Source: a virus. From it: a DNA stretch of 47,788 bases. Every line of letters starts with the position of its first letter. Within the stretch, counting starts at the first letter, position 1. Of the stretch, positions 6,676 through 47,181 are shown one piece after another. The translations under genes and the position numbers were made by a program. The stretch lies in the IMG/VR virus record IMGVR_UViG_3300023118_000011, positions 1 through 47,788 of that record; one strand, given 5' to 3'. Below the pieces are notes generated by a model that did no database searches, was not told the origin of the DNA, and was given only the letters and a program-made list of their open reading frames with translations.

Positions 6676-6704
6676 ACGATATACCTGCAACCATAGGATT
6701 GCAA
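6676..6704 (-). promoter_or_regulatory. TTGCAA-motif promoter (copy A)
   Basis: On the minus strand the 18-base motif TGCAATCCTATGGTTGCA (plus 6686-6703) carries a -35 box TTGCAA. A 17-base spacer leads to TATCGT; TATATC at a 15-base spacing is the alternative. It sits between the stop of the spike gene (6709) and the start of the exported protein (6649). The same motif occurs at 37.6 and 47.15 kb, and in a degenerate form at 30.66 kb. Confidence 0.65.
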
Positions 6705-26479: not shown

Positions 26480-26534
26480 GGCGGAATTCTCGGATAGTTG
26501 GCAGTGCTGCCATCCTACTCCGTGCCTTCGGGCA

Positions 26535-26562
26535 TAAAAAAGCCGACCTGTGAAGATCGGCT
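26535..26562 (-). terminator. intrinsic terminator before the packaging operon
   Basis: On the minus strand GCCGATC and GGTCGGC (plus 26555-26561 and 26542-26548) form a 7-bp stem with one G-U pair, followed by six U. It separates the small membrane-protein gene (26620) from the packaging genes. It would stop transcripts of the accessory region. Confidence 0.8.
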
Positions 26563-26619
26563 CGGGGCCTAGCCCCTGCGAACAAGCGATTTAGACTTGC
26601 TCGGTGTGGTGGGTCGATC

Positions 26620-29019: not shown

Positions 29020-29655
29020 TTACGGATTGTGCGTCGGCTCGACCCAGCCCGAATCGTATGCGGCCGGCGTCTTGGTCTTGTCGATCGTCTGCTCGTTCGT
29101 CCAGCCAGCGGGACGGGATGGAATGCGCGCACGATAGCTGTCCGACACGACAGGCTGCCCATCCATACCGATCAGGCCCAGCTTCTGGCAGGCGTCGATC
29201 TCCTGGGCGGTGGCTGTGCACTTCTGGAACCAGGCCATGGCGCGAAGCTTGGCGGCTGCGTCGGCAAGCCCGACCTGAGCGGCATCGGCGGCAAGGGCCA
29301 CATAGACGCCGGCATCGCGGCGGGCGTTGCAGCGAATGGATTCGGTAGCGTTGCCCTTGGCCGCACTGAACCACATCGTGGCGATCCCGCCCTGCGTGGT
29401 GTTGGCGCAGTTTTCGTTTGAGAAGCCTGCCGCAGCTCCACCGAGCGACAGCGGGGCGACCTGCTCAACGCGCTGATGACCGTAGTCATAGCGCATGTGG
29501 TCGGCGCCCTCAAACGTGTTGTTGAGGCTGACGCCGTTGTTGCTGGCCCCTGCGGAGGCACCGGACTGGACGGCGGTCTGGCTGGTCGAGGTGACCTGAG
29601 CAGCAGCCGGAAGCGAAGCCGCGGCGATAAGCCCGGCGAGAAGGTAGCGGATCAT
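29020..29655 (-). CDS. exported protein, 211 aa
   Basis: MIRYLLAGLIAAASLPAAAQ is a clear signal peptide (cut after AAA). The mature part begins with Ser/Thr/Asn-rich low complexity, then ESIRCNARRDAGVYVALAAD and AWFQKCTATAQEIDACQKL with four or five cysteines. The layout recalls small periplasmic or extracellular proteins encoded near lysis regions; I cannot name the family. No partner is obvious. It lies about 64 bases after the next gene's stop. Confidence 0.6.
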   Translation of the reverse strand: MIRYLLAGLIAAASLPAAAQVTSTSQTAVQSGASAGASNNGVSLNNTFEGADHMRYDYGHQRVEQVAPLSLGGAAAGFSNENCANTTQGGIATMWFSAAKGNATESIRCNARRDAGVYVALAADAAQVGLADAAAKLRAMAWFQKCTATAQEIDACQKLGLIGMDGQPVVSDSYRARIPSRPAGWTNEQTIDKTKTPAAYDSGWVEPTHNP

Positions 29656-30296: not shown

Positions 30297-30637
30297 TCCG
30301 TCAGTTTTCTCACCCCTGCAAGGTGTGTATGCGTTGGGCCGGCACTGATCCCCGGCATACCGTCGAGTTCGCTTGACGGCCCTCAAACCCTGCGCATCAG
30401 CCTGCGCATTCCGATCCATACAAGTAAGGCGGCTAGTCAGGGGGTCGAGCCGACTTGTCCGTATTCTTTCAACGGTGAGCTGATTGCCTTCAGCGCTAAC
30501 CGCCTTACTTGTGCCCCTTATTACGCGAAGGGACCACGCGGCGAGGATGATCGCCTCACTTCTACCCGACCTTTGCCTTAACGTGGCACTGACTGTCGAG
30601 TCTCCCCACGACGGCTGCCAGGGGGCTAGCTGCCGTG
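30270..30637 (-). ncRNA. putative structured RNA of about 370 nt
   Basis: The segment 30300-30640 has no minus-strand ORF of 60 codons and no credible plus-strand gene. It is bracketed by a TTGCAA-type promoter (30644-30672) and a terminator (30269-30296). Within it CAAGTAAGGCGG (30421-30432) and CCGCCTTACTTG (30500-30511) are perfect inverse repeats. In the minus-strand transcript the stem extends to 16 pairs with one G-U; in the plus strand it is broken by a C-A mismatch, which favours the minus strand as template product. The loop is about 60 bases and may fold further. No tRNA features are seen. It could also be an origin. Confidence 0.4.
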
Positions 30638-30643
30638 GAACGA

Positions 30644-30672
30644 ACTATGCGCTTGCAATCCTATGAATGCAA
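30644..30672 (-). promoter_or_regulatory. TTGCAA-motif promoter (copy D, degenerate)
   Basis: On the minus strand TTGCAT (plus 30667-30672), a 17-base spacer and CATAGT (plus 30644-30649). The plus strand here reads TTGCAATCCTATGAATGCAA, two bases different from the motif at 6.69, 37.59 and 47.15 kb. It lies 11 bases beyond the o-spanin stop and faces the non-coding segment. Confidence 0.5.
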
Positions 30673-37569: not shown

Positions 37570-37598
37570 ATCCTAAACCTGCAACCATAGGATTGCAA
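37570..37598 (-). promoter_or_regulatory. TTGCAA-motif promoter (copy B)
   Basis: On the minus strand TTGCAA (plus 37593-37598), a 17-base spacer and TAGGAT (plus 37570-37575). The 18-base motif occupies plus 37580-37597. The TAG stop of RusA (37599) follows it directly, and the 116-residue gene starts 30 bases downstream at 37540. It would start an early transcript within the minus arm. Confidence 0.6.
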
Positions 37599-39161: not shown

Positions 39162-39676
39162 GGCGTCCTCGCATTCATCGCGTTGGGTTCGGTGGTGAGG
39201 CAGGCGGCCCGCGCAAGGCGACCCATGGCAGTCGGGGTGAGACCGTTGTCGGCATTGCCGTCGTAGACCAGGCGAAGCACCGCGGCTCTGGTGGCTCGAG
39301 CCTCATCGTCCGTGACGGTCGTCAGGGCCGAGGCCATGCCGGCACGACTGATGCCCTGTTCTTTGTCGAGCTGTATGGCGGTGGCGAGGCGGGCGATGCT
39401 GTCGCAATACGTGCTGGCGCAGGCAATCGCTGGGCCGAGCAGCAGGGACGACAGGACCACAGACTTCACGATTTGCTTGGCGCGGGACTGGCGGACACTC
39501 TCGGCCTCACATGCCCGGCACCGCGCGGCCCAATAGCCATGCATGCGGCGGTAGAACTCGGGATCGCAAGGCCAGTACTCCTGGCAACCGGTGCAGTATT
39601 TTTCCTCGAACTCCGGCCGGGTCCGAAAGCGCGGGACGCCGGACTTCGTAAACGGGGTGATCGATCCAAGCTTCAT
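39158..39676 (-). CDS. zinc-ribbon plus membrane-anchored protein, 172 aa
   Basis: Residues 20-60 form a zinc ribbon: KYCTGCQEYWPCDPEFYRRM, then RCRACEAESVRQ. A hydrophobic stretch at 75-88 (VVLSSLLLGPAIACAST) is a likely membrane or lipobox-like segment. The rest is helical with ALTTVTDDEARATRAAVLRL. The mix of a zinc ribbon and a membrane piece is unusual. AGGAC lies before the ATG at 39676. Role unknown. Confidence 0.6.
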   Translation of the reverse strand: MKLGSITPFTKSGVPRFRTRPEFEEKYCTGCQEYWPCDPEFYRRMHGYWAARCRACEAESVRQSRAKQIVKSVVLSSLLLGPAIACASTYCDSIARLATAIQLDKEQGISRAGMASALTTVTDDEARATRAAVLRLVYDGNADNGLTPTAMGRLARAACLTTEPNAMNARTP

Positions 39677-40221
39677 GGGACGTCCTGTGAGGTCTTCGGC
39701 CGCCCGAGGGCGGCACGGATGCGGGCGATATGCTCGGCGGCGGTCTCGGGGCTAGCCGGGCGGCGCTCGGGCGGTTTCTGTTCTATAGCTGGGAGGATCG
39801 GGTCAAGCACTTCACCAGCCAGCACGCGTTTCTTCACGACGTCATAGGCGGCCTGAAGGATCTTGTTCGCCTCGTAGGTCGGCGATCCCTTCCAGTTCCA
39901 CATGTCGATGGCGCGGGAGACGGCGACGGTGAACGGCTGGGGGTCACGCTGGCCGCGCAGGTAGGCTTCGCACTCGTCGCGGGTAGGGATGTCGAAACAG
40001 AACAGGCGGAATTCGGGGGCGCGCGGGGCGAAGCCGTGGCCGCTGTCGCGAAGACGGTCACAGGCCCGCATGACGAGGTCAGGCTCGACACCCCGGATCA
40101 CGCCCGCCCATTCCTCGCCAAACGCCGTCAGAGCGCGTCCGTCCGGTCGGAGAGGGGTAGGGCCGTACTGGCTGGTCCATTCCCTCCCGTACAGCACGCC
40201 CATGCGCTCCCATAGCCGCAT
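39673..40221 (-). CDS. replication P-like helicase loader
   Basis: A 182-residue protein from ATG 40221 with MRLWERMGVLYGREWTSQYG, EEWAGVIRGVEPDLVMRACD and HGFAPRAPEFRLFCFDIPTR. These match the lambda P / P22-like helicase loader N-terminal domain (W-x-x-x-L-x-x-x-L...P-E-F-R-x-x-C). It would bring host DnaB to the O-like protein. It has no strong ribosome site and probably depends on coupling with the O-like gene, 13 bases upstream. Confidence 0.65.
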   Translation of the reverse strand: MRLWERMGVLYGREWTSQYGPTPLRPDGRALTAFGEEWAGVIRGVEPDLVMRACDRLRDSGHGFAPRAPEFRLFCFDIPTRDECEAYLRGQRDPQPFTVAVSRAIDMWNWKGSPTYEANKILQAAYDVVKKRVLAGEVLDPILPAIEQKPPERRPASPETAAEHIARIRAALGRPKTSQDVP

Positions 40222-40234
40222 GATCAGCGTCCGG

Positions 40235-41124
40235 CTAACGGTGGCCGAAGGCAGCGCGGAAGGTCCGCTGCTCGTCGTCGGACATGGCCTCATAGTCTTC
40301 ACGGAGTGCTGCGCGGTTTCGCTCGCTGGCTTCCATGACTTGTTCGTAGGAGGTTTTGGCTCGGCCATTGGTCTTCGGTCCGGTTGAGGTGTCGATGTCG
40401 GCGGTCCAGCCGCCGCCGTTGAGGTAACTGGATACGTGGGGGATGGCGAATCCATCAATCCATGGCCGGTGGAATTTCTTGCGCTGGTCGAGGTCGAAGT
40501 GAAGTCGGGTTCGCTCGGCCTGTTTATCGGCATCGTCGAGATTGAGCTTTAGCCACGCCTGGTAACCCTTGGCCTTCGTTCCTCCCTTTCCCTTGGGCCA
40601 GCAGTCCCAGAATTCTTCGAACTCACGGCTGTACTTCGCGTCGCCGATAACTGGCTGGATCACGGAAATCGAGTTCCCCCGCTTGCGGGGGCTAGGGGGT
40701 TTCGTAAGACTCTTTTCTTTCGTGCTGTTTTCTTGTGTTTCGTAAGAGTGACCAGGTTTCCCGTCAGTCGGGGATTCCGTGCGTACGGAAATCGGTATAC
40801 ACGGCTCCAAGTTGAGAATCAGGTCGCGGCCGACAATCCGGTTACCCGCGTCCCTCACAAAATGGTCACTCACAAGGCCGGCTGCCTTCAGCACGCGCAT
40901 GGCTTCGGCGTAACGCTCGCGACTCAGGTCGAAGTGGTCGCGAAGGTGATTCTTCAGGATTCGCCAGTTCGACGACTTGCTGTGGAGGTACGCCCACAAC
41001 GCAGTGCGTCGGGGTTCTGGATCGACTGAATCACTGCGGTAGGAAGCTGGGTGTAAGGCGCAACCTGTTTACGAAGCACGGCATCGGGAAGCGCCGCTGC
41101 CTGGGCGCGTTCGGCTTCGTTCAT
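40235..41124 (-). CDS. O-like replication initiator, frameshifted near residue 42
   Basis: The reading frame from ATG 41124 (MNEAERAQAAALPDAVLRKQ, then PTAVIQSIQNPDAL) matches the usual start of O-like initiators. It leaves the correct frame near 41001 and stops at about 40957. The remainder, LWAYLHSKSSNWRILKNHLR then ERYAEAMRVLKAAGLV, is read in a second frame to the stop at 40235. One missing base near 40999-41003 accounts for the break. The ATG overlaps the zinc-finger gene's TGA as ATGA, which supports 41124 as the true start. The C-terminal half is a winged-helix and a charged region. It may be a sequencing error, a real mutation, or a programmed shift. Confidence 0.65.
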
Positions 41125-41297
41125 GCTGCAACAGCCTTCGGAGCCGGATTACGGTCTTCGATCATGTCAATGCAAATTCGTACGCATTCTTGGCAGATAG
41201 CTGCGTCAGATGGGCCCGCTATAAGCGCAGGAGTCGAATCCTCAGAAACACCGCAGTAATCGCAGTGCAGGACGGTTCGGGTTTGGGTTTTTTTCAC
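41121..41297 (-). CDS. ClpX-type zinc-finger protein, 58 aa
   Basis: A short protein from GTG at 41297 with AGGAG upstream. HCDYCGVSEDSTPALIAGPS then AAICQECVRICIDMIEDR fit the ClpX zinc-binding domain: C-x2-C...LIAGP...ICxEC...C.D.I. That is all there is, without the ATPase. It would dimerise and may pose as or bind ClpX adaptor sites. It is coupled by ATGA to the O-like gene, so a link to replication control through ClpXP is worth testing. Confidence 0.75.
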   Translation of the reverse strand: MKKTQTRTVLHCDYCGVSEDSTPALIAGPSDAAICQECVRICIDMIEDRNPAPKAVAA

Positions 41298-41323: not shown

Positions 41324-41340
41324 GGCGATGTTGCATCGCC
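41324..41340. promoter_or_regulatory. perfect operator-like inverted repeat
   Basis: GGCGATG (41324-41330), TTG, CATCGCC (41334-41340) is a perfect 7-bp inverse repeat. It overlaps the -35 box of the plus-strand RNA promoter. It lies 27 bases upstream of the zinc-finger gene start on the minus strand. It could be the binding site of the HTH regulator. Confidence 0.45.
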
Positions 41341-41358
41341 GCCAAAGGTCGGTATGAT
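41331..41358 (+). promoter_or_regulatory. promoter of the OOP-like RNA
   Basis: TTGCAT (41331-41336), a 16-base spacer and TATGAT (41353-41358) form a good sigma-70 promoter on the plus strand. It points at the 3' end of the HTH gene. The predicted start is at about 41365. Confidence 0.65.
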
Positions 41359-41364
41359 CCGGCC

Positions 41365-41439
41365 TAGCGGAGACGCGCCATCGCCTTGGCGCGTTCTGTT
41401 TGGCCCTCGGAGTTCGTCGCTCCGGGGGCTTTTCTTTTT
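41365..41439 (+). ncRNA. OOP-like small RNA, about 75 nt
   Basis: Between the promoter at 41331-41358 and a terminator lie two hairpins. The first is a perfect 8-bp stem ACGCGCCA (41373-41380) with TGGCGCGT (41387-41394). The second is GCCCTCGGAG (41403-41412) with CTCCGGGGGC (41420-41429), followed by TTTTCTTTTT. The RNA is about 75 nt, ends within the stop codon of the HTH gene (41438-41440), runs against it, and lies just upstream of the O-like gene. Lambda OOP has the same place, direction and size, between cII and O. Confidence 0.6.
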
Positions 41440-41755
41440 ACTCGTCTTTCGGCGTGTAGCCAAGCGCTTTGACAGTCAAGCCCTTGAAGTGCTGGGGTGC
41501 CACTTCCTTCAGGTTCGCTTTCCCGCCCTTGGCCTGCGCCATTTCAACGATACGGCGGGCCATCACGGCATCCAGCGGGTCGGTGTCGCTCTTGCGTCCC
41601 GTCCGCGTGTCGCCCCAGCGTATCCGCTCGATGACCGGACGGCTGACGCCCAGCTCGCGCGACACATACGAAGCCCCGCCAGCCTGTTCAATCGCTTCTT
41701 CTCTGGCCTTGGTCACCTTGGCGGTGAGGCGTGTTACCCATTCGAAACGTTTCAT
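41438..41755 (-). CDS. small HTH regulator (Cro/CII-like position)
   Basis: A 105-residue protein from ATG 41755. AGGASYVSRELGVSRPVIER (residues 25-45) forms an HTH, followed by IRWGDTRTGRKSDTDPLDAV. The C-terminal part is helical and basic. It is the first gene of the minus arm. By position it is a counterpart of CII or Cro, but no direct match is recalled. The longer frame to 41848 begins with a TTG and has no ribosome site. Its own ribosome site is weak. Confidence 0.65.
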   Translation of the reverse strand: MKRFEWVTRLTAKVTKAREEAIEQAGGASYVSRELGVSRPVIERIRWGDTRTGRKSDTDPLDAVMARRIVEMAQAKGGKANLKEVAPQHFKGLTVKALGYTPKDE

Positions 41756-41892
41756 TTGGTGCTCGGCAGCAGTGGTGTTGGGCGGAGTGTGCACCGATCC
41801 GGCTATTTGGTCAATCCACGGATTGTTTTTCTTCGCGGAGTAGTGCAAGATGACTCATCCCCGAGCCACTTCGGGGCACATGGGTGAATTCG
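41756..41892. promoter_or_regulatory. divergent control region between the two arms
   Basis: This 137-base gap separates the minus HTH gene and the plus RecE-like gene. On the minus strand TTGACC (plus 41809-41814), 17 bases and CACACT (plus 41786-41791) form a possible promoter. On the plus strand TTGTTT (41823-41828), 17 bases and CAAGAT (41846-41851) form a weaker one. CCCCGA-GCCACT-TCGGGG (41860-41875) is a hairpin just before the RecE start. Fit of all boxes is partial. Confidence 0.5.
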
Positions 41893-42816
41893 ATGTCCGC
41901 ACTCGATCTTGCGTTGCCCGCCTGGGCGGCGCCGTACTTTGATGGTCCCGATGCAAAAGGGAAGGCCATCGTCTACGGTTTGCAGGAAGACCTCTATCAC
42001 CGCACGAAATCGCTGATTTCGAAGTCGTCGCTGGACAAGATCGCGATGACCCCGGCGCACTACCGTTACCACTTGGCTAACCCGGTGGTGCCGACGCGCG
42101 CCATGGTGACCGGCTCGGCGCTACATACGGTCGTTCTGGAGCCGGATCTGTTTCCCCGCAAGTTCGTGGTGATGCCCGAGTTCGGCAACATGCGAACCAA
42201 CCTGGCAAAGGCCAAGCGCGACGAGTGGATCGCGGAGCACGGCGCGGGGAAGACCTACCTCACGGCTGAGGAAATGGCGACGGTGATCGGCATGGCCGAC
42301 TCGCTTCGCATGCATCCAACCGTGCGTATCCTGCTGGCGGACTTCGAACCCGAAGTGACCATCGTCTGGACGGACGAGGAAACAGGCTTACCATGCAAGG
42401 GCCGCATCGATGCGCTGTCGCGGTACGCCGATGGCATCCCGGTCGACATCAAGTCAGCACGCGATGCGTCGGAGTCGGGCTTCATGCGGGCCGCGCACAA
42501 CCGGCGCTACCACGTTCAGGATTCCACTTATATCGGTGGTCTACGTGCAAACGGTCACACGGCGCGCAACTTCGTCCTGCCCGCGGTGGAAAGTAAGCCG
42601 CCTTATGCCGTGGGCGTGTACCAGTTCCGTGCGCCTTCCCTGATCGCCGGTGACGAGCTGCGCCGCCGTGATATGCGGATGCTGGCGAAGTGCCTGAAGG
42701 CCGACCACTGGCCCGGTTATACCGAGAACATCCGCGACATCGATATTCCCAACTACGGCCTCGCCGAGGCTGAGAACATGAACAACCTTGACGACGAGGA
42801 TGACAACGATGAGTGA
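41893..42816 (+). CDS. RecE/Exo8-like exonuclease (PD-(D/E)XK)
   Basis: A 307-residue protein. It opens YGLQEDLYHRTKSLISKSSL then MTPAHYRYHL, the RecE/DUF3799 start. Further on, SALHTVVLEPDLF, then EVTIVWTDEETGLPCKGRID and PVDIKSARDAS, give the D and D-x-K of the nuclease; DSTYIGGL follows. It resects double-stranded ends to feed RecT. The ATG at 41893 is preferred; GTG at 41884 is in frame. Its stop overlaps the RecT start by 8 bases. Confidence 0.85.
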   Translation: MSALDLALPAWAAPYFDGPDAKGKAIVYGLQEDLYHRTKSLISKSSLDKIAMTPAHYRYHLANPVVPTRAMVTGSALHTVVLEPDLFPRKFVVMPEFGNMRTNLAKAKRDEWIAEHGAGKTYLTAEEMATVIGMADSLRMHPTVRILLADFEPEVTIVWTDEETGLPCKGRIDALSRYADGIPVDIKSARDASESGFMRAAHNRRYHVQDSTYIGGLRANGHTARNFVLPAVESKPPYAVGVYQFRAPSLIAGDELRRRDMRMLAKCLKADHWPGYTENIRDIDIPNYGLAEAENMNNLDDEDDNDE

Positions 42817-47140: not shown

Positions 47141-47181
47141 TGCAATCCTATGGTTGCAATCTTCGGCGGGATGCGTATACT
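47141..47181 (+). promoter_or_regulatory. TTGCAA-motif promoter (copy C)
   Basis: The 18-base motif at 47141-47158 ends in TTGCAA (47154-47159), which with a 16-base spacer precedes TATACT (47176-47181). This is the best match of the four copies to a sigma-70 promoter. It comes right after the terminator and about 46 bases before the next gene at 47227. In this copy the second half-site acts as the -35 box. Confidence 0.75.

Follow-up and report, generated by a model that had tools for sequence, protein, structure and literature searches.

Short antisense RNAs of phages include OOP, whose transcription unit (pO-oop-tO) is found in Stx phages as well as in lambda, and P22 sar, which stops translation of ant and lies outside the replication operon. 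Lambda OOP measures 77 nt and sar 68/69 nt (PMC12197685). OOP overlaps cII over 52 bases and leads to RNase III-dependent cutting of the cII-O mRNA at two sites, neither of which lies in cII (PMC5869508); therefore, little coding overlap is needed for action of the OOP type. Transcription from pO is convergent with that from pR: when pO is lost, transcription from pR goes up and replication is impaired, while the O initiator itself is a substrate for degradation by ClpXP (PMC3985674).

Here, we describe a locus of related plan in the viral record IMGVR_UViG_3300023118_000011, the whole of which (47,788 bases, 62% GC, linear ends) was analysed and is referred to as the window. On its minus strand lie, in this order, a gene for an HTH-like regulator, a gap, and genes for a small zinc-finger protein (ZF), an O-like initiator, a P-like loader, a Dam-type methylase and RusA. 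Opposite the gap, the plus strand carries a predicted RNA that, judged from its sequence, very probably exists as a short antisense RNA, OOP-like in plan (Table 1). RecT follows the exonuclease of the divergent operon, both on the plus strand and running away from the HTH gene.

Table 1 Features of the locus and their positions in the window
Feature	Position	Strand	Remarks
P-like helicase loader	39673-40533	-	phrog_109, 1.6e-7
O-like replication initiator region	40235-41124	-	phrog_270, 6e-19
AT-rich patch inside O-like gene	~40699-40759		two flanking GTTTCGTAAGA repeats
ClpX-type C4 zinc-finger protein (ZF), 58 aa, GTG start	41121-41297	-	PF06689, 4e-12
Palindrome GGCGATG-TTG-CATCGCC over -35 box	41324-41340		candidate operator
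Small-RNA promoter-like site TTGCAT-N16-TATGAT	41331-41358	+	sigma-70 matrix
Predicted non-coding RNA, ~74 nt, ends +/-2 nt	41365-41438	+	antisense to HTH-ZF intercistronic region
Hairpin 1, 14 bp, one bulge, 6-nt loop AUCGCC	41366-41400	+	
Hairpin 2, 12 bp, 5-nt loop (41402-41430), with U-tract; predicted intrinsic terminator	41402-41439	+	
HTH-like regulator gene, ATG at 41755, 105 aa	41438-41755	-	frame open to 41848
RecE-type exonuclease (exonuclease VIII), first gene of divergent operon	41884-42816	+	

Signals and fold of the predicted RNA

The promoter-like site was found exactly where a sequence-only reading of this DNA had placed it, with the -35 box at 41331-41336 and the -10 box at 41353-41358, separated by a spacer of 16 nt. 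It ranks second among the 95,504 positions scored on both strands of the window by a sigma-70 weight matrix, the frequencies of which are general ones for E. coli promoters. Its -35 box is poor (3/6 consensus), and the built-in consensus scan misses the site because 8 of its 12 bases match and the scan needs 9. The palindrome over the -35 box may be an operator. It has one copy with two mismatches, at 41369-41385, and no other close copy in the whole window; at up to three mismatches, its matches are no more frequent genome-wide than expected by chance.

The predicted transcript contains no ATG and no GTG, and its length is close to the 75 nt or so that had been proposed. Two hairpins had been proposed as well; both are present, with stems of 14 and 12 bp instead of 8 and 10 bp, and both include G-U pairs. 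The U-tract TTTTCTTTTT (41430-41439) reaches into the HTH stop codon (TAA, 41440-41438), where the RNA had been expected to end. The predicted folding energy of the RNA, -43.9 kcal/mol (z -5.6), is equalled by none of 200 shuffles, whereas the minus-strand complement reaches only -30.9 kcal/mol and is thus 13 kcal/mol weaker. The plus strand fold is the more stable because its G-U pairs become A-C mismatches on the minus strand. A fold specific to one strand in turn makes an RNA of ~74 nt from the plus strand likely.

The combination of signals is rare. Among compact hairpins with a U-tract, this terminator ranks first over the two strands of the window; the one match of lower energy is an irregular hairpin, 42 nt long, whose U-tract is poor. 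When promoter-terminator pairs were sought at a distance of 35-130 nt, with a matrix score of at least 9 and an energy of -12 kcal/mol or lower, the window yielded one site and shuffled genomes 0.135 each; a pair reaching even score 12 and -16 kcal/mol was absent from all 200 shuffles. Upstream on the plus strand there is no gene that would need a terminator, the open reading frames there being opposite the O-like and P-like genes. It is therefore likely, as far as prediction goes, that a short plus strand RNA is made opposite the replication operon.

Relatives were sought in several collections. With an exact-peptide/exact-DNA prefilter, 2.9 million viral contigs (IMG/VR) gave no homologue of the HTH protein, ZF, the O-like protein or the RNA; the exact 27-nt core of the RNA is also absent from them. 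A single-sequence scan of the viral contigs and of genome contigs gave no relative of the exonuclease. Among 50,697 phage records there was no homologue of the HTH protein, the O-like protein or the RNA, and blastn searches of phage records with the region or the RNA as query returned no meaningful match. The HTH protein had no homologue in 72,556 plasmids or in 369 bacterial genomes of the class of Caballeronia. HTH and ZF homologues were absent from 160 loci collected with the exonuclease profile, and in 50 phage records collected with the portal profile the HTH protein had no homologue and O a single weak match. ZF had distant relatives only, in a few Pseudomonas phages, and the operator repeat, used as bait, drew out 8 contigs with no genes in common. 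As the prefilter detects close relatives only, and as records that are very close to the window may be excluded, these absences are no proof that homologues do not exist.

Comparison with lambda OOP and lifestyle of the phage

The resemblance to lambda OOP, which had been drawn from place, direction and size, is borne out on all three. Both RNAs have a promoter of their own opposite a replication operon, predicted from sequence in the present case, and an intrinsic terminator of their own; they are of nearly the same length (~74 nt here, 77 nt in lambda), and each points toward a regulator gene, from the interval that separates this gene from an O gene. An AT-rich patch with repeats sits midway in the O-like gene, with a P-like loader in the neighbourhood. 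The patch has the second lowest GC content among 60-base stretches of the window and is a candidate origin; in lambda, the origin likewise lies inside the O gene. The O-like gene itself is irregular. Its 5' part (40954-41124, minus strand) is in another frame than the rest: the ATG at 41124 is out of frame and the open stretch of the homologous frame begins at 40999, which points to a frameshift or an assembly error.

Below the level of layout, the parallel weakens. The overlap with the regulator gene is 0-3 nt, confined to the stop codon, compared to 52 nt in lambda. The regulator is not recognisably CII: up to an E-value of 1 it has no match to CII families, and its single profile match is YdaS-like at E 0.0016, below the cut-off. 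A structure model of the regulator reached a pLDDT of 49, which is insufficient for a fold comparison. The RNA does lie between the HTH and O-like genes but not, as first described, just upstream of the latter, since the ZF gene intervenes, a gene that lambda does not have at this place. ZF is preceded by a Shine-Dalgarno sequence at 41308-41305, its stop overlaps the ATG at 41124 (ATGA), and among known structures it matches ClpX zinc-binding domains best (6e-8). The promoter also differs from that of OOP in carrying no LexA box of the E. coli type (CTGT-N8-ACAG), although the motif of the host may differ; the sole such box of the window is at 29138. In Rfam, the RNA has no match at the gathering score and chance-level matches below it, a result that does not presume an OOP model in that database. 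Because the coding overlap, the CII partner and the LexA box of OOP have no counterpart here, we do not file the RNA under the OOP family. P22 sar is similar in being a phage-encoded antisense RNA of comparable size, and different in its ant target and its location.

The phage had been read as lacking lysogeny genes. This holds in the window for the three classes searched, with neither a tyrosine integrase nor a serine resolvase nor an HTH_3 repressor detected and with positive controls. Its structural relatives are nevertheless temperate. The portal shares 43-45% identity with its counterparts in two phages: Bordetella phage vB_BaM-IFTN9, a prophage that was induced and that encodes an integrase, and Burkholderia phage Magia, in which both an integrase and a repressor are present. 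The late genes are collinear with those of IFTN9. Since the record is possibly a fragment, the phage cannot be called virulent on this basis.

Proposed action of the RNA and competing explanations

We consider it somewhat more probable than not that the locus encodes an OOP-like cis-antisense RNA, which has a promoter and a terminator of its own and is directed against the HTH-ZF-O-P transcript; this is the best explanation we have. The RNA would pair with the HTH-ZF intercistronic gap with full complementarity, in a duplex of ~74 bp, and RNase III would cut the duplex, so that the messages for HTH, upstream of the duplex, and for ZF-O, downstream of it, would be separated and destabilised. 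Firing of the promoter would at the same time send polymerase head-on into the replication operon. The quantity controlled would be the dosage of HTH or of O. Since contact of the RNA with the HTH gene is limited to the stop codon, destruction of the regulator mRNA is something we infer. If the RNA is made, an antisense layout in the style of OOP would be present in the replication module of a myophage without a detectable CII or close relatives, and it could then be asked whether the deeper role of OOP is initiator dose rather than the choice between lysis and lysogeny.

Masking or unmasking of the ZF start by the RNA was also considered. Modelled pairing leaves the occlusion of the ZF ribosome-binding site unchanged (paired probability 0.65 versus 0.67), and a simple switch of ZF translation is not supported.

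Most serious among the rivals, though we hold it to be unlikely, is transcriptional interference, whereby convergent transcription, of the kind seen with lambda pO and pR, would lower transcription of the operon across the origin and tune replication, with the RNA as a by-product. The effects of pO loss in lambda (PMC3985674) speak for it, as do the origin-like patch in the O-like gene ~600 nt from the small-RNA promoter and the rank of that promoter as the second best of the window. Against it, the strong strand-specific fold suggests selection on the RNA itself, and hairpin 1 would be superfluous.

Three further proposals seem improbable to a similar degree. Firstly, hairpin 1 and the U-rich tail could belong to a trans-acting sRNA that works on host or phage messages from elsewhere; size, terminator and structure are like those of ordinary sRNAs, but the position opposite the replication operon already provides a perfect cis target, and a duplex scan of the phage showed no outstanding site elsewhere. 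Secondly, there is a slim chance that the segment is the leader of the exonuclease-RecT operon, which follows 450 nt further along the plus strand: transcription would start at 41365 and stop at 41430 or, when antiterminated, continue antisense through HTH into the exonuclease gene. Yet no antiterminator gene was recognised, and the exonuclease has a separate promoter-like site just upstream (+41846, rank 43 by the sigma-70 matrix). Thirdly, initiator dose might be controlled in two layers in a phage with no recognisable lysogeny genes, the RNA setting the ZF-O message and ZF shielding O from ClpXP, an idea to which we give little weight. Its second layer starts from the degradation of lambda O by ClpXP (PMC3985674), in view of which a mimic of the ClpX zinc domain beside an O-like gene suggests that ZF may protect the O-like protein from proteolysis.

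That the hairpins instead serve in processing or stabilising the minus-strand mRNA, with no plus strand RNA, is very improbable: a longer minus-strand stretch also folds well (z -5.4), but the hairpins are much weaker on that strand, the U-tract is of use to the plus strand only, and a top-ranked promoter is directed into the segment.

Other regulatory and structured elements of the window

An 18-bp palindrome, TGCAAYCMTAKGRTTGCA, absent from the small-RNA promoter, occurs at 6686-6703, 30654-30671, 37580-37597 and 47141-47158 (4 sites versus 0.07 expected). Each copy adjoins a promoter-like site whose -35 box reads TTGCA, and the palindrome is likely an operator of a phage regulator.

On the minus strand, positions 30418-30516 hold a structured element whose core of ~44 nt (~30445-30488) is 93-98% identical in 44 phage records, from phages of Aeromonas, Enterobacter, Acinetobacter, Salmonella, Serratia and Pseudomonas. 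Among the records inspected, the element is mostly unannotated and lies between tRNA genes of the same strand; its closing stems vary in sequence, with pairing kept in most of the 11 compared. It has no Rfam match, a search that gave one chance-level match elsewhere, and its sequence looks like that of an uncatalogued phage RNA.

A second promoter-terminator pair, ~75 nt apart and enclosing three hairpins (z -5.2), is located between small genes at 26534-26610 on the minus strand, where a second small RNA is possible.
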